From a virus: a DNA stretch of 28,457 bases. The notes beneath the pieces are model-generated. The model made no database searches, was not told the origin of the DNA, and worked only from the letters and a program-made list of their open reading frames with translations. Shown one piece after another: positions 15,664 to 25,472 of the stretch. The translations under genes and the position numbers were made by a program. The stretch covers positions 1-28,457 of the IMG/VR virus record IMGVR_UViG_3300042314_001860. The stretch is one strand, 5' to 3'. How positions within the stretch are numbered: the stretch's first letter is position 1; the number at the start of each line of letters is the position of its first letter.

Positions 15664-15987
15664 ATGACTGCTAAAACTGTGAACTATACCCCTGAGCAAA
15701 CCCTGCAAATGGTTGCCGACTATCAAGCCGGTAAAACTGTGGAAACCATTGCTGAAGCATTGGGCAAAACTGTCCGGTCGGTTGTTGCAAAACTCAGCCG
15801 TGAAAAAGTTTATGTGGCTAAGACTTATGTTTCAAAAACTGGTGAGGCTGTTGTGAAAAAAGATGTTGTTGCCGATTACATTGGTGATGCCTTGGGCTTG
15901 GGTGAAGCTGATGTTGAATCGCTGACAAAAGCCAACAAAACAGCATTGAAAGCCATTGCGGATTTCATCAAGGCTGAAAAGACCTGA
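15664..15987 (+). CDS. GcrA-like small DNA-binding protein, paralogue 1
   Basis: 107 residues. NYTPEQTLQMVADYQAGKTV, then IAEALGKTVRSVVAKLSRE, form a helix-turn-helix that closely resembles the N-terminus of GcrA-type regulators (pattern: YT-E...L..LY..G.....IA..LG-..R-AV..KL.RL). A basic segment (YVAKTYVSKTGEAVVKKD) and a C-terminal helix follow. GcrA in Alphaproteobacteria binds sigma-70 at methylated promoters; whether this relative does so is not known. Ribosome binding site AAAGGA lies 9 nt upstream. It is one of four paralogues in this window (20347, 22037, and 24412 on the minus strand). A short hairpin follows the stop. A transcription factor or nucleoid role is inferred. Confidence 0.75.
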   Translation: MTAKTVNYTPEQTLQMVADYQAGKTVETIAEALGKTVRSVVAKLSREKVYVAKTYVSKTGEAVVKKDVVADYIGDALGLGEADVESLTKANKTALKAIADFIKAEKT

Positions 15988-16863: not shown

Positions 16864-17034
16864 ATGATTACTATCAAACCACAATATGAGTTAACTCGCA
16901 AAATGTGTGAATTGGTGGAATATTTTAATAAACTTGAAAAAGAATTAGAATATCCAAATTGCGAAGGTGAGGCGGATAAAAAACGAATACTTTTGTGTGC
17001 GGAACGTCAATTGATAATGGAAGGTAAATTGTAA
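16864..17034 (+). CDS. 56-residue coiled-coil-like protein
   Basis: MITIKPQYELTRKMCELVEYF..., with a heptad-like helix (ELVEYFNKLEKELEY), a charged linker and KKRILLCAERQLIMEG. Likely a small helical protein that forms dimers; no named family. The last gene of its cassette; the covarying hairpin A3 begins 10 nt after the stop. Confidence 0.55.
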   Translation: MITIKPQYELTRKMCELVEYFNKLEKELEYPNCEGEADKKRILLCAERQLIMEGKL

Positions 17035-17043
17035 CGCTTTGGT

Positions 17044-17075
17044 TTGCAAACAAAAATGAGTACTTTTGTTTGCAA
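17044..17075 (+). repeat. Covarying intergenic hairpin, copy A3
   Basis: TTGCAAACAAAA (17044-17055), loop ATGAGTAC, TTTTGTTTGCAA (17064-17075): 12-bp perfect dyad, 10 nt after a stop codon. Confidence 0.8.
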
Positions 17076-17087
17076 GTTGGCGCCAAT

Positions 17088-17117
17088 ATTATACCACATA
17101 ATATTGGGGCGTGTCAA
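17088..17117 (-). promoter_or_regulatory. Repeated minus-strand promoter B3
   Basis: Minus strand TTGACA (17112-17117), 18-nt spacer ending in TGG, TATAAT (17088-17093). A dyad, CCAATATTAT / ATAATATTGG, spans spacer and -10, so a repressor could cover the promoter. Confidence 0.82.
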
Positions 17118-17147
17118 GCACTTTCCCCAAAAAACAACGAAAACAAT

Positions 17148-17261: not shown

Positions 17262-17738
17262 ATGGCAAAGATTACTAAAGTTAGCATTTACGATATGGAT
17301 GGTACTATTGTTTGCAGTTTGCACAGGTATAGAACTATTGTTGACGATAATGGCGAACGTATTGATTTGGATTATTGGAGACAAAATGAATATCGCGCAA
17401 TGGATGATTCATTATTGCCATTAGCATCCCAATATCGCAAAGATTTGCAAGACGATAATACTTTTGTGATTATTGCCACTGCGCGAGTTTTGCATGATGC
17501 CGATAATGAGTTTATTAAAACTGTTTTAGGTGAACCCGATTATATTATCTCACGTTGTGATGGTGATACTACTTCAGGCGGTAAACTCAAAATCGCTGGT
17601 TTGGCTAAATTCTTTAATTTAAAGAATTTCAAAGATGCCGAATTTACATTTTATGAAGATAATACCACTTATTTAAAAGCGGTTTGTGATCGCTTTAATA
17701 TTCGCGGGGTTTATGTTCCAAGCAAACAAGGTCACTAA
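17262..17738 (+). CDS. HAD-superfamily phosphatase (nucleotidase / polynucleotide 3'-phosphatase-like)
   Basis: 158 residues. D11-M-D13-G-T is the HAD catalytic motif (nucleophile D11, acid-base D13), FVIIATAR with T73 is motif II, K108 or K110 in GGKLKIAG is the motif III lysine, and FYEDN (E132-D133) is motif IV. All four motifs are present, so the enzyme is probably active. Phage HAD enzymes of this size act as 5'(3')-nucleotidases or as the phosphatase half of T4-type polynucleotide kinase, healing RNA or DNA ends; the substrate cannot be read from sequence. No kinase P-loop is fused. It is a single-gene cassette with an AAGGA binding site, followed by a GAAA-loop hairpin. Confidence 0.85.
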   Translation: MAKITKVSIYDMDGTIVCSLHRYRTIVDDNGERIDLDYWRQNEYRAMDDSLLPLASQYRKDLQDDNTFVIIATARVLHDADNEFIKTVLGEPDYIISRCDGDTTSGGKLKIAGLAKFFNLKNFKDAEFTFYEDNTTYLKAVCDRFNIRGVYVPSKQGH

Positions 17739-17781: not shown

Positions 17782-17934
17782 ATGTTTAAAGCATTTGCAA
17801 GATTAATCAAACACTTTGTTTATAATCGCCCGGATAAAATATTGATTACATTAATGTTGCCGGTTCTTATGATTATTACTTTTAATTATCGTGATAATCT
17901 GCGAGAATATAAGGCATTCATTTTTGACAGGTAA
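17782..17934 (+). CDS. Small single-span membrane protein
   Basis: 50 residues. A basic amphipathic start (MFKAFARLIKHFVYNRPDK) leads into one hydrophobic span, ILITLMLPVLMIITFNY (about residues 20-36), and a charged tail. A GGAG binding site lies 8 nt upstream. Topology with the basic N-terminus inside is likely. No family is recognised. The covarying hairpin A4 starts 11 nt after its stop. Confidence 0.6.
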   Translation: MFKAFARLIKHFVYNRPDKILITLMLPVLMIITFNYRDNLREYKAFIFDR

Positions 17935-17944
17935 CACTTTTGTT

Positions 17945-17974
17945 TGCAAACCAAAATGAATACTTTGGTTTGCA
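17945..17974 (+). repeat. Covarying intergenic hairpin, copy A4
   Basis: TGCAAACCAAA (17945-17955), loop ATGAATAC, TTTGGTTTGCA (17964-17974): 11-bp perfect dyad, stem like A2, loop like A3. Confidence 0.75.
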
Positions 17975-17986
17975 GTTTGCGCCAAA

Positions 17987-18016
17987 ATTATACCACATAA
18001 TTTTGGCCCCTGTCAA
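17987..18016 (-). promoter_or_regulatory. Repeated minus-strand promoter B4
   Basis: Minus strand TTGACA (18011-18016), 18-nt spacer ending in TGG, TATAAT (17987-17992), with the 11-bp dyad GCCAAAATTAT / ATAATTTTGGC across it. Confidence 0.82.
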
Positions 18017-18046
18017 GGGGTTTTGCAAAAAAACAACATAAATAAT

Positions 18047-19908: not shown

Positions 19909-19958
19909 TTTGAAAACAAAAGTTTTACATTTTGAAAATGAATACTTTTGTTTTCAAA
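19909..19958 (+). repeat. Covarying intergenic hairpin, copy A5
   Basis: TTTGAAAACAAAAG (19909-19922) pairs with CTTTTGTTTTCAAA (19945-19958), 14 bp. Relative to A3 a C-G pair has become A-T on both arms, a compensatory change. The loop is longer than in other copies. Confidence 0.72.
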
Positions 19959-19969
19959 ACGGCGCCAAA

Positions 19970-19999
19970 ATTATAGCATATGATTTTGGCCCGTGTCAA
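19970..19999 (-). promoter_or_regulatory. Repeated minus-strand promoter B5
   Basis: Minus strand TTGACA (19994-19999), 18-nt spacer ending in TGC, TATAAT (19970-19975); dyad GCCAAAAT / ATTTTGGC retained. It belongs to the 440-bp gap 19906-20346, which otherwise holds the repeats and promoters listed here and no gene I can support. Confidence 0.8.
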
Positions 20000-20144
20000 C
20001 ATTTATTTATAACATATTTTTTGTAGGGGATTAAAAAACAACACAATTTTATGGTATAATAAATTGTGGGCGCGCCAAAAATTTTTGTGTACTTTTGTTT
20101 GCGGCGATTTCTGTGAACCAAAGTACTACAGGGCGTGCGCCAAA

Positions 20145-20346: not shown

Positions 20347-20679
20347 ATGGAAAAGACTACAAAAGCGGTCAACTATACCGCAGAGCAAACCACCAAAATG
20401 GTGGCCGATTATGCCGCAGGTGTAACCGTTGAAGCAATCGCTGAAAGCATGGGCAAAACTGTTCGTTCGGTTGTTGCTAAACTGTCACGTGAAAAAGTCT
20501 ATGTTGCGAAAACTTATGTTTCCAAAACTGGTGAAGCAGTAGTCAAAAAGGACGCACACGCGGATGCAATTGGTGCAATTCTCAAATTGACCGAAGCTGA
20601 AACTGAATCTTTGGTGAAAGCAAATAAAACCGCTTTGGCTAAAATCTTTGAAGCATTGGCAAATTCTAAGCCAATCTGA
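20347..20679 (+). CDS. GcrA-like small DNA-binding protein, paralogue 2
   Basis: 110 residues, closely related to the gene at 15664: VNYTAEQTTKMVADYAAGVTV, then ESMGKTVRSVVAKLSREKVY, and the same YVAKTYVSKTGEAVVKKD segment. The helix-turn-helix and basic tail are almost unchanged; the C-terminal helix differs (LKLTEAETESLVKANKTALAKIF). It should bind DNA, with GcrA-type regulators as the nearest recognised relative. AAAGGA lies before the ATG. Two promoters upstream suggest stronger or differently timed expression than the other copies. A GAAA-loop hairpin and a long inverted repeat follow immediately. Recent duplication with 15664 is likely. Confidence 0.75.
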   Translation: MEKTTKAVNYTAEQTTKMVADYAAGVTVEAIAESMGKTVRSVVAKLSREKVYVAKTYVSKTGEAVVKKDAHADAIGAILKLTEAETESLVKANKTALAKIFEALANSKPI

Positions 20680-21340: not shown

Positions 21341-21455
21341 TGAAAATGAGTACTTTTGTTTGCCATGCCGAAATGAATACTTTTGTTTGCAGTTTGGCGC
21401 CAAAATTATACCACAATTTTGCGGCCCGTGTCAACGACTGTTACAAACTGTTACA
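21341..21455 (+). repeat. Intergenic module copy A7/B7/C7
   Basis: Two direct copies of AAATGARTACTTTTGTTTGC (at about 21343 and 21371) replace the hairpin of other copies. They are followed by the minus promoter B7 and two CTGTTACA sites at 21438 and 21448, 10 bp apart. Direct rather than inverted arms show the element can be rearranged. Confidence 0.65.
21405..21434 (-). promoter_or_regulatory. Repeated minus-strand promoter B7
   Basis: Minus strand TTGACA (21429-21434), 18-nt spacer ending in TGG, TATAAT (21405-21410), facing the preceding gene end. Confidence 0.8.
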
Positions 21456-22036: not shown

Positions 22037-22345
22037 ATGACTAAAGCAACCCCTCAAAACTACACTCCCGAGCAAACTGTGGAACTCGTCACAGGCTACC
22101 AGTCGGGCAAGACCGTGGAACAACTGGCCGAGACCCTGGGCAAAACCGTGCGCTCGGTTGTGGCTAAACTGTCGCGTGAAGGCGTGTACGTGGCCAAAAC
22201 CAAAGCCACCGGCCAACATCGCGTCAAGAAAGCCGAGCTGGTGGACAAGCTGGCCACGGCCTGCGGTGTACCTCCAGAAGTATTTGAGTCGCTGGAAAAG
22301 GCCAACCACGAAGTGCTTGAGCGACTTGTTGCCGAACTTGCTTGA
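22037..22345 (+). CDS. GcrA-like small DNA-binding protein, paralogue 3
   Basis: 102 residues from the second of two adjacent ATGs (22034 and 22037); the second has the better distance from AAAGGA. NYTPEQTVELVTGYQSGKTV, then LAETLGKTVRSVVAKLSRE, retain the helix-turn-helix of the family; the basic middle is shortened to KATGQHRVKKAE and the end has its own helix. The gene is far more GC-rich than paralogues 1 and 2 despite protein identity of about half or more by eye, which suggests a separate origin or different codon pressure. It probably binds DNA; target unknown. A weak hairpin-free leader and a promoter follow at 22370. Confidence 0.75.
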   Translation: MTKATPQNYTPEQTVELVTGYQSGKTVEQLAETLGKTVRSVVAKLSREGVYVAKTKATGQHRVKKAELVDKLATACGVPPEVFESLEKANHEVLERLVAELA

Positions 22346-22369
22346 GCCTTAGGGTCACAAAATCTACAC

Positions 22370-22398
22370 TTGATCTGTGACCCATTTCGCGATATAAT
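22370..22398 (+). promoter_or_regulatory. Upstream promoter of the RNA locus
   Basis: TTGATC (22370-22375), 17-nt spacer, TATAAT (22393-22398). No convincing gene follows, so the transcript may be a long leader or joint transcript with the RNA started at about 22601. Confidence 0.65.
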
Positions 22399-22565
22399 AT
22401 ATACTTAGAAATTGATAAAGAACCCAGTCGGGAATGGCTTAATGAATACCATGTGATTTACTCAACTGGTGCCAGTTCCGTCTCAGCAGCCGCAATCACT
22501 AACCAGTCACTGTACGTCGACACACCTGCGAAGCTAGCCTGATGACAACGATTGGAATTCTTTTA

Positions 22566-22594
22566 TTGATTTCACTCTTTATTTAGTGTATAAT
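22566..22594 (+). promoter_or_regulatory. Promoter of the giant RNA
   Basis: TTGATT (22566-22571), 17-nt spacer, TATAAT (22589-22594), giving a start near 22601. A second ATATAATAGG follows at 22599, so starts could vary by about 10 nt. Confidence 0.75.
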
Positions 22595-22973
22595 AGATAT
22601 ATAATAGGGTGACAGCGGATGCCAAAGTTGATGGCAATACGTCTTAATTGTGGAAAAGCGAAAGCCCCCGAGCCACAGCCCTTAGCCCCTATAATAAATT
22701 GCTCAAACTGTGCTAGCCAGGTCTGCTGGTGCATGTATGCAGATTAACCCCACCGGTAGGTCTCGGCCGAGACGGCGAAAGTGGTAGAATGCTGCAACTG
22801 TACCAGAGTTTGTTGAGTGATTTATTATGGGTGTTATGAGGGTCCAATTTGACTGGACGTAACAACTTAATGGTAGCCGAAAATTCTCTAGCTACCGCCC
22901 ACCTTTTTAGCCCGTAATATCTGGACGATGTTCCGTATGGTAAGTAGTAAAATACCTGCGTGGCTAAACTAAC

Positions 22974-23071
22974 CCTCTGATGAGCACATGCAAGTTGTGC
23001 GAAACTCTAAGGCCTCACAGCAAGTGTGCGTGATATTCCCACATCACCGCTTGCCGTACCTTAGGGTCAGG
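22974..23071 (+). ncRNA. Type I hammerhead ribozyme embedded in the giant RNA
   Basis: Core CTGATGA at 22977-22983; stem II GCACA/TGTGC (22984-22988 with 22996-23000) with a 7-nt loop; GAAA at 23001-23004, whose last A begins stem III; stem III ACTCTAAGG (23004-23012) with CCTTAGGGT (23059-23067), nine pairs with one G-U; then C17 at 23068, giving a GTC cleavage triplet. Stem I begins with AGG (23069-23071) and CCT (22974-22976), then an internal loop and a possible CCAGC / GCgTGG extension. All conserved core bases are present. Stem III is closed by a 46-nt loop with its own hairpin; both open ends lie in stem I. Cleavage is predicted between 23068 and 23069. Confidence 0.8.
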
Positions 23072-23751
23072 ACGAAAACCCAGCAAAACCGGGATGCCCT
23101 TCCCCTCTGAAGCCTAGTAGCCCTGTGCGAAACCCGGACGAGGCTACGGCAGAAAGTGAGTAGCTGGAAATGAGTAAGCCTAGTGAGCAGTTACTATATA
23201 AACTGCCGTCTTATCTGGTACCGACGTAAAAGGGTCTTGACTCTAGAGTGGTTGACTTAAATAGCCCGGTTTGGTATACCGAACGTAAAACATACCCGAG
23301 CTTGGCCCTCTTTACTGTGGCTCGACACGGATTGTCGTTAAATGGCCCCTGAGTGGTGCTTATCGCAAACTGAGCACCCGACCCTAAGTCGTTAAAAGTA
23401 GTGCAAACAGCTGCAGGAAGTCGCAAACCTGGCTCCGATCTAGTATCTGAGCGTAGAGCGTATCGAAACTGTTTGCAATGGTGCATGCGCTGGAACCGTA
23501 GCACCCGACCCAAAGCTGTGGCAGGTCGTTAAGATTGTCAGCAACGACAAAGCCCAAAGTCGATAAAAAAATGTGGTGGGCTGAAGAGCCGAACCAATAC
23601 TATTCTCACCTCTGTGTGCAGCCGATTTACAAACTCAACCAAGTTTGATCGAATTGCCACGGTTTAGGGTCGATGCAGTTAGCGTGGGTGGTACCCCCAG
23701 TAAGTCGTCGTATGAGACTAAAAACTAACAGCGAGTGCACTCGTGATTGTT

Positions 23752-23792
23752 CAAAAGCCCCAAGAGTTAGCTACTCTTGGGGCTTTTGTTTT
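23752..23792 (+). terminator. Intrinsic terminator of the giant RNA (bidirectional)
   Basis: CAAAAGCCCCAAGAGT (23752-23767), loop TAGCT, ACTCTTGGGGCTTTTG (23773-23788), then TTTT. A 16-bp stem with a T-rich end; it can also stop minus-strand transcripts from promoter B9. Confidence 0.95.
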
Positions 23793-23845
23793 GGGTGTTT
23801 TGGTCAGCTCGACATTTTTACGCCTAGTCTGTTGCGGTCTGCGCC

Positions 23846-23875
23846 ATTTTACCCCACGGTGGATAACCTTGTCAA
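23846..23875 (-). promoter_or_regulatory. Diverged minus-strand promoter B9
   Basis: Minus strand TTGACA (23870-23875), 18-nt spacer ending in TGGGG, TAAAAT (23846-23851), then GGCGC. Its transcript would run into the bidirectional terminator at 23788-23752 and remain short. Confidence 0.6.
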
Positions 23876-23985
23876 GTGGATTTTCACACACTTGACCCCC
23901 AGCTGCAGTGTGCAGCAGCAAATTGCCGAGTTTTGCTAACCTTGAGGTCGGCAAGTGCAGCCACCGTGTACATGAGTCACAAACG

Positions 23986-24100: not shown

Positions 24101-24412
24101 TTATGGCAGTTTAGGGTCTTGCAGTGCGCGTTCGATCATTACCAGCACAGTTTTGTTGACTTTTTCTAATGATTCTAATAATTCTAGGTTGGCGTTGAGT
24201 AGTATGGCAATGCGTTCGATGTGCTCTGACTTTTTCACCGGCGTTTCACCACGCTTGTTCAAGTAGCTTTTCTTTTGGTAGACTCCAAGGCTGCTGAGCT
24301 TGGCAATTATGCTGCGTTCGGGCACGTCCAGCTCCAGTGCTAGCTGTGGCACCCCAACTCCACAGTTGTACTGTGCTACCATGTGGTCACAAATTTCTTT
24401 GGTGTATTTCAT
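24101..24412 (-). CDS. GcrA-like small DNA-binding protein, paralogue 4
   Basis: 103 residues from the ATG at 24412, which has GGAG 8 nt upstream; a longer in-frame start at 24481 overlaps the preceding gene and is not preferred. YTKEICDHMVAQYNCGVGV, then LALELDVPERSIIAKLSSLGVY, followed by KKSYLNKRGETPVKKSE, match the helix-turn-helix plus basic segment of the three plus-strand paralogues; GET-PVKK echoes their GEAVVKK. Divergence is much larger, so this copy is an old one. It is the last gene before the terminator at 24031-24064. DNA binding is inferred from the motif. Confidence 0.75.
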   Translation of the reverse strand: MKYTKEICDHMVAQYNCGVGVPQLALELDVPERSIIAKLSSLGVYQKKSYLNKRGETPVKKSEHIERIAILLNANLELLESLEKVNKTVLVMIERALQDPKLP

Positions 24413-24425
24413 GGGCGGCTCCAAA

Positions 24426-25472
24426 TCATAACCAAGGTAAATCAGAAGCAGGAGTTGCTTCAAGAGGTTTACTAAGCACAACCGTCGGTTGTGGAGCTTT
24501 AAAGATATTTACGTCAATTAATGGTGTAGGCATTTTGTCCCAGTTCATAGGGTCTAGTATCATATATTTAGTACGATTGCTGGGATGTGCTGCCCAGGTT
24601 TGGCATAACATAATTTTTACAAGACCGTTGCAGTCTGCTAGTTCTGTATCTCCTAAGTGATACAGCGAATATGTTGTAACAGCACTACGCTGCTTGCCTG
24701 CTTGCATTAAGCCAATTGCACGAAGTTCTAACAACCGCTCTGTATCTAGTTGCGGAGTTTCGGTTAACATAGCTTCACACAGTGATTCGTTAACTACAAA
24801 GTGTAGCGACTCTCGCTCCCAACGAGCGTAGTCTACACCATGGTAAAGTTTGTGGGCATACATAATAAGAGGCACTAGGGTGCAGTATTTTCTTGCTTCG
24901 GCACCATTCATTTTATCAAGATAGCTACTACGACCATCCATCATGATAAATCTGTAAATACCCAGGTCTCGCTCTGATTTAGGATCAAGGTTGTCTTTTA
25001 GGTATTGCAGACCCGAAATCGTACCATCCGACCCTAAATTGTTTAATTTGTGCTTGCTGAACTCAGCAACGATTTGATCTAAGAGCTTGATGCCCCATGA
25101 CTTAAGGTGGTATGGCTTAACAAAGTATTCAGCCAGTGCTTCGTTGCCAGCTTTTGAGCGTACCTGTCGTTGTTGTAGTGGGGTTAATTTAGGCGGATTA
25201 TACTCAAGGCCAAGATCGCCTTCGTAGCTTGTTTCTGTTTCGTCGATGCCAGCTAGCTTAATGGCGTCACTGCGACGCTGATCGTAGCTGGTGTCATACC
25301 GGCTTTGCAGTGCTTCTAGTGTATTAGTTTCAGCGGCATCTGCTGCTTCACGATAAATACGTGATGCTTCACTCCAAGGGATACTATCTATGTTACTAGA
25401 GTAGATTTTAGTGTTTAGTCGGTTTGTGGGTAGTCGTTTTTGAAAATACATAATTGTGAGCCTAAGTCTCAT
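24426..25472 (-). CDS. 348-residue unknown protein
   Basis: No family is recognised. It has an acidic, helix-rich N-terminal part (EASRIYREAADAAETNTLEAL), a mixed middle (QVRSKAGNEALAEYFVKPYHL and RFIMMDGRSSYLDKMNG) and a Pro-rich, unstructured-looking tail (FKAPQPTVVLSKPL). No Walker, HxH or acidic catalytic cluster is evident. The first ATG at 25472 and the in-frame ATG at 25451 are both possible; neither has a good binding site, and a TTTAGGGTC motif lies just upstream of the former. A 392-bp noncoding region with a hairpin RNA and a G-quadruplex motif precedes it. Its size is unusual among the small genes here, so it may be a key phage-specific protein. Confidence 0.6.
   Translation of the reverse strand: MRLRLTIMYFQKRLPTNRLNTKIYSSNIDSIPWSEASRIYREAADAAETNTLEALQSRYDTSYDQRRSDAIKLAGIDETETSYEGDLGLEYNPPKLTPLQQRQVRSKAGNEALAEYFVKPYHLKSWGIKLLDQIVAEFSKHKLNNLGSDGTISGLQYLKDNLDPKSERDLGIYRFIMMDGRSSYLDKMNGAEARKYCTLVPLIMYAHKLYHGVDYARWERESLHFVVNESLCEAMLTETPQLDTERLLELRAIGLMQAGKQRSAVTTYSLYHLGDTELADCNGLVKIMLCQTWAAHPSNRTKYMILDPMNWDKMPTPLIDVNIFKAPQPTVVLSKPLEATPASDLPWL

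Follow-up and report, generated by a model that had tools for sequence, protein, structure and literature searches.

A candidate self-cleaving hammerhead ribozyme inside a long noncoding RNA of uncultured phages

Does a long noncoding RNA of a tailed phage cut itself by means of an embedded hammerhead ribozyme and, if so, to what end? The window (the whole stretch of DNA analysed here) is a 28,457-base IMG/VR virus record from a tailed phage, the large terminase of which is at best approximately 50% identical to the terminases of 113-118 kb Vibrio phages that we take to be T5-like. Giant phage RNAs have, to our knowledge, no known function. A review leaves open what hammerheads do in phages and bacteria (PMC6155905), and both questions meet in the RNA family described here, which offers dozens of natural variants. 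We consider it likely, judging from sequence, that the element is an active, cis-cleaving type I hammerhead in a long phage noncoding RNA; it may set the 3' end of a 5' product that often bears a tRNA.

The elements of the ribozyme, all on the plus strand, are as follows.

22974..23071, +: type I hammerhead ribozyme (114 bits with model R1; covariation)
22974-22976, +: 5' strand of stem I, CCT (direct reading)
22977..22983, +: CUGAUGA box (C3-A9), CTGATGA in the DNA, invariant apart from N7
22984..23000, +: stem II and loop II (GCACA at 22984-22988, TGTGC at 22996-23000)
22989-22995, +: loop II, TGCAAGT (direct reading)
23001..23004, +: GAAA (G12, A13, A14, A15.1), invariant
23004..23067, +: stem III with inner hairpin, the outer 9 bp being 23004-23012/23059-23067
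23068..23069, +: expected cleavage between C23068 (H17) and A23069 (N1.1), by hammerhead numbering
23069-23071, +: 3' strand of stem I, AGG (direct reading)

Every element of a type I hammerhead is present in the correct order, both by direct reading and by re-derivation with a script: CCT, CTGATGA, GCACA-TGCAAGT-TGTGC, GAAA, a 9-bp stem III with a long inner hairpin, GTC, and AGG. The script confirmed to the base what an initial annotation of this DNA had read, namely CTGATGA, a 5-bp stem II, GAAA, a 9-bp stem III, and GTC in type I order. As in type I hammerheads generally, stem I is an open helix whose outer ends are the 5' CCT and the 3' AGG, and stem II is closed by G10.1-C11.1 with GAAA next to it; A15.1 (23004) pairs with U16.1 (23067), and stem III runs on through 23012/23059. 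The hammerhead fold has a predicted energy of -31.5 kcal/mol versus -32.2 kcal/mol for the unconstrained minimum, a cost of 0.7 kcal/mol in a comparison that ignores core contacts. Folding of the full 1.2-kb RNA, which is unreliable at this length, did not yield the complete junction. A loose descriptor (stem II of at least 4 bp, stem III of at least 5, stem I of at least 3) matches the real window once and none of 400 first-order Markov shuffles of it. In the long class, UGNAANU is the prevailing form of loop II and AGGAYGAAA that of the 3' flank; no pairing or triple between stem I and loop II could be assigned.

At the gathering threshold, Rfam returned no hammerhead match, none of the hammerhead families (clan CL00010) reaching its cut-off in the window and no match being found in 11 loci with relatives. 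A search with the Rfam type I models, proposed in the initial annotation as a check, gave nothing usable even at a permissive threshold: over 171 bases the best score, for Hammerhead_3, was 12.4 bits versus a cut-off of 48.5, in the wrong register. The models probably cope poorly with a long stem III combined with a short stem I, which would explain this silence. Phage ribozymes may therefore be more numerous than counts based on current Rfam hammerhead models suggest, since those models miss the present type I subgroup.

Because Rfam misses the ribozyme, a family-specific model was built from relatives. An exact 29-mer of the 5' core retrieved 11 stretches of viral contigs, and the set was enlarged with a 3' anchor lacking the 5' core and with a core pattern in which the stems were free; a further 34 loci came from a search with two anchors that contain no ribozyme sequence and lie in a separate 5' domain of the RNA. 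Besides the window, 53 IMG/VR loci carry the motif, among them one near-identical to the window (L005) and two on a single contig (L008 and L011). As part of the set came via core patterns, conservation of the core is supported independently by the 5'-domain set, where 29 of the 34 loci hold the ribozyme. The five without it comprise two from a different, AT-rich phage (L046 and L049) and three related RNAs (L054, L055, and L065); these three indicate that the ribozyme is not indispensable. It occurs in 17 of 19 longer phage records, as a single copy in 16 and as two variants in one. The contig carrying L008 and L011 was considered as a tandem array and rejected, its two variants of one RNA at the contig ends being more likely assembly alleles. 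Five further loci (L014, L016, L018, L019, and L030) were discarded as chance matches of the 3' anchor. Outside the collected loci, blastn of the RNA against named phages and a strict pattern search of bacterial and archaeal genomes found no match. Three bacterial or archaeal matches to a relaxed pattern, about as many as the chance estimate, were set aside; two have no hammerhead pairing and the third (L089) is a weak fit. Two other phage contigs carry well-formed compact hammerheads outside this RNA family (L068 at 637, minus strand; L074 at 6469, plus strand).

Eleven core positions (C3, U4, G5, A6, G8, A9, G12, A13, A14, A15.1, and U16.1) are constant across the relatives. At N7, U, C, and A all occur (A in L064); the hammerhead box is written CUGAnGA, N7 being the one position known to be free (PMC10085705). 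H17 is C, once A, and never G, and A15.1-U16.1 is A-U in all 43 distinct sequences of the covariation set. L023, a candidate for loss of CTGATGA, was rejected as such: its row was misaligned by the model in one alignment, and by eye it carries CTGACGA together with a long insert in stem II. The initial annotation had named homologues losing core bases without compensation as evidence against its reading; they were looked for among the relatives and none was found.

All three helices are supported by covariation. In stem II, 98.8-99.0% of alignment cells are paired, with at least 41 double-change cells; the variants are GCACA/UGUGC, GCUGA/UCAGC, GCCGA/UCGGC, GCCUA/UAGGC, GCUUA/UAAGC, GCCAG/CUGGC, GCUC/GAGC, and GUCC/GGAC. 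Stem III covaries too, as does stem I, in which CCU/AGG becomes CCA/UGG (L047, L058, and L060) or CCUU/AAGG (L053 and L064). Over the whole structure there are 89 double-change cells versus 26.7 in shuffles and at most 35 with slid partners. The covariation score is 0.325 on the alignment fitted to the model (0.126 shuffled, at most 0.102 with slid partners), and a free MAFFT alignment gives a similar picture (0.318 versus 0.128 shuffled). Length varies in places: an extra U lies between A9 and stem II in L023, L051, and L064, and the stem II arm is much longer in L023 and L064. The identity of the window element as a type I hammerhead is thus strongly supported by comparison with its relatives. 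Since the core stays unchanged while the stems change in matched pairs, self-cleavage of the RNA into two parts is very probable.

The RNA around the ribozyme is delimited by the following features.

22370..22398, +: promoter-like site P1 (TTGATC-17-TATAAT), with TATAAT similarly placed in relatives
22566..22594, +: promoter-like site P2 (TTGATT-17-TATAAT), conserved in relatives, start expected near 22601
22601..23792, +: long noncoding RNA from P2 to the terminator, approximately 1.19 kb, predicted extent
22607..22681, +: 5' structured domain, GGGTGACAGCGG-hairpin-ATACGTCTTAATTGTGG...CCGAGCCACAGCCC, with 29 distinct copies and a covarying hairpin
23752..23792, +: intrinsic terminator, 16-bp stem and T run

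No plus-strand open stretch of 60 codons occurs in the long RNA. The consensus of the 5' domain is a 66-88-nt RNA-like element, GGGYGACAGCGG-hairpin-AYACGUCUUAAUUGUGG...CCGAGCCACAGCCC, which belongs to no Rfam family; part of it recurs in L046 and L049, from the very different AT-rich phage that lacks the ribozyme. At 22831-22903, immediately ahead of the ribozyme, GGGTGTTATGAGG...ACTTAATGG...CCGCCCACC seems to resemble the 5' domain in layout, as if the fold were doubled, judging by eye from the window and L053. We have good confidence that the ribozyme, the 5' domain, and the remainder form one continuous transcript. That the hammerhead lies inside a long structured noncoding RNA, as the initial annotation had it, is supported by the core and its covariation. 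So far as covariance models can tell, this long RNA is matched by no Rfam family, neither GOLLD nor ROOL: the GOLLD model found nothing at the gathering threshold in the window or in 11 loci, nor at an E-value threshold of 5 in 22350-23900 or of 1 in L011 and L057.

The two sides of the ribozyme differ among relatives. A tRNA-Glu(TTC) lies within approximately 10 nt 5' of the ribozyme in at least eight loci (L003, L006, L047, L051, L057, L058, L060, and L061) and approximately 100-300 nt before it in five (L008, L010, L011, L053, and L064); the window's own RNA contains no tRNA. From the cut the RNA extends 32-35 nt to the terminator in the compact class (L032, L034-L036, L038, L039, L042, and L043), where a bare terminator follows the ribozyme, and 105-881 nt in the other loci. 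In this mosaic RNA it is the ribozyme that stays fixed. In one relative (L053, 1-8957) a promoter-like TATAAT stands close upstream of the ribozyme, and eight tRNA genes and a permuted tmRNA share the locus.

Small HTH-like family genes lie on both sides of the RNA in the window (22037-22345, plus strand; 24104-24430, minus strand). They belong to a set of four paralogs (VRSVVAKLSREGVYVAKT), the other two being at 15664-15987 and 20347-20679, both on the plus strand. PHROG matches of the gene at 22037-22345, the third in order, are to a D5-like transcription regulator and a DNA binding protein, and the HTH protein had no match among named phages. An intergenic module in four copies (17031-17122, 17931-18029, 19930-20002, and 21350-21440) reads on the minus strand like a promoter (TTGACA/TATAAT) and carries an inverted repeat, CCAAAATTAT...ATAATTTTGG.

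A hammerhead makes one cut after C17, leaving a cyclic phosphate on the 5' product and a 5'-OH on the 3' product. During transcription of the present RNA, stems II and III would fold first and stem I would close next, followed by a single self-cut after C23068. The predicted 5' part of approximately 468 nt would contain the 5' domain, the tRNA-Glu in many relatives, and most of the ribozyme, and would end in a 2',3'-cyclic phosphate; the 3' part of approximately 724 nt would begin with a 5'-OH. These lengths follow from the expected start near 22601 (P2) and the terminator end near 23792, and a start at P1 instead would lengthen the 5' part. The likeliest role of the cut would be to trim the 5' product to a constant 3' end that excludes the terminator and the variable 3' part, since the RNA past the cut is dispensable and the 5' side often keeps a conserved domain and a tRNA. 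While catalytic activity itself is proposed with high confidence, this role is put forward tentatively. The family allows the cut site, the product ends, and the effects of the tRNA or the 3' part to be tested in vitro.

The cut might instead serve the 3' product, by releasing a 3' RNA that acts on its own and starts with a 5'-OH, or aid formation of an RNA circle. The 3' part is long, with conserved islands, in the window and many relatives, and the window has a gene (17262-17738, plus strand) resembling phage polynucleotide kinase (phrog_415); its product, perhaps a 3'-phosphatase, could in that case act on cyclic-phosphate RNA ends. However, the compact class has only a terminator past the cut; a circle would need two cuts, and there is one ribozyme per phage, the contig with two variants at its ends being the sole exception; and RtcB is absent from the 13 records searched. 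A search for RNA ligase (PF09414) gave weak matches in 5 of 12, one of them above the cut-off. We regard this explanation as unlikely.

Another reading is that the ribozyme is gated: a GACCCTAA-type element further upstream would pair with the substrate strand (TTAGGGTC and the scissile site) and block the cut until displaced. All ten compact-class loci have, 51-56 nt before CTGATGA, a stretch of 9-15 nt perfectly complementary to the substrate strand; in the L032-type compact RNA the upstream element is CCTGACCCTAAACCG. For L032 and L039 this complement is predicted to out-compete the ribozyme fold at equilibrium (mean pairing with the substrate strand 0.94, ribozyme stems at probability 0), and we counted this against an active ribozyme. 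The pairing is nonetheless weak in the other eight compact loci, and the window RNA has no GACCCTAA copy 5' of the ribozyme and only one 3' of it, at 23380. The complementarity may also be a by-product, because TTAGGGTC/GACCCTAA is a frequent DNA repeat. The 8-mer occurs 11 times on both strands of the window versus 0.4 expected, often between genes, and is perhaps a binding site or DNA repeat:

2895, 7590, 15144, 22349, 23061, 23380, 23664, 24111, 25030, 25482, 26909: 8-mer TTAGGGTC/GACCCTAA

Gating thus appears quite improbable, and an equally doubtful proposal is a new class of long tRNA-bearing phage RNA in which the hammerhead is the most constant part and the cut is gated upstream in some members; if true, the tRNA-bearing half would be freed only under certain conditions.

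A former hammerhead might have lost cutting and kept its core for folding alone, as a three-way junction. The low Rfam scores and the short stem I, of just 3 bp in the window, both of which we counted against activity, are in keeping with this. Yet the constraint is catalytic: G12, G8, C3, A9, and a cleavable H17 are retained, and the catalytically free N7 alone drifts, a pattern that a mere scaffold would not need. We judge such a relic very unlikely. Chance resemblance, for which Rfam silence might be cited, is negligible in view of the shuffles and is refuted by the homologues, with their conservation and covariation in 43 distinct sequences.

The preferred reading, an active hammerhead that sets a 3' end, places a known kind of ribozyme in an apparently undescribed setting. 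The initial annotation knew of no ribozyme embedded in a giant ornate RNA, and in the literature covered, which excludes most subscription papers and theses, we found no description of a hammerhead within a giant phage RNA; one paper, on drawing software, mentions hammerhead ribozyme and GOLLD jointly. Its suggestion that the 3' part is close to GOLLD in length carries no weight, as GOLLD is not matched even permissively, and the length of this part means little because it ranges from 33 to approximately 880 nt in relatives.

Perreault et al. (2011, PMC3088659) report hammerheads of phages and prophages in other settings, as well as hammerheads that are active despite variation in the core. 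Phage and bacterial hammerheads (PMC3088659; PMC6155905) resemble the present one in core, order, expected cut, and phage setting, and single intergenic copies are known. Those near phage genes sit in mRNAs or short intergenic RNAs, whereas here the ribozyme is a constant element of a long noncoding RNA that has a structured 5' domain and in many cases a tRNA, and it differs further in its long inner stem III hairpin, its stem I of 3-4 bp, and its silence in Rfam. HRIMA-1 and type SGC metagenomic hammerheads (PMC10085705) share the CUGANGA box and closely conserved stems but are permuted, unlike the ordinary type I order found here. ROOL (PMC12286853) is likewise a long phage noncoding RNA near tRNA genes, with no Rfam match here. 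GOLLD (PMC12286853) is also long, noncoding, and of phages, with tRNAs nearby and sometimes inside its linker; the cryo-EM paper on GOLLD and ROOL mentions these linker tRNAs and not a hammerhead. The tRNA inside some members of the present family is shared with GOLLD as a likeness of layout and not as membership. The conserved half of GOLLD is the 3' half, whereas the 3' half of the present RNA is its variable part.
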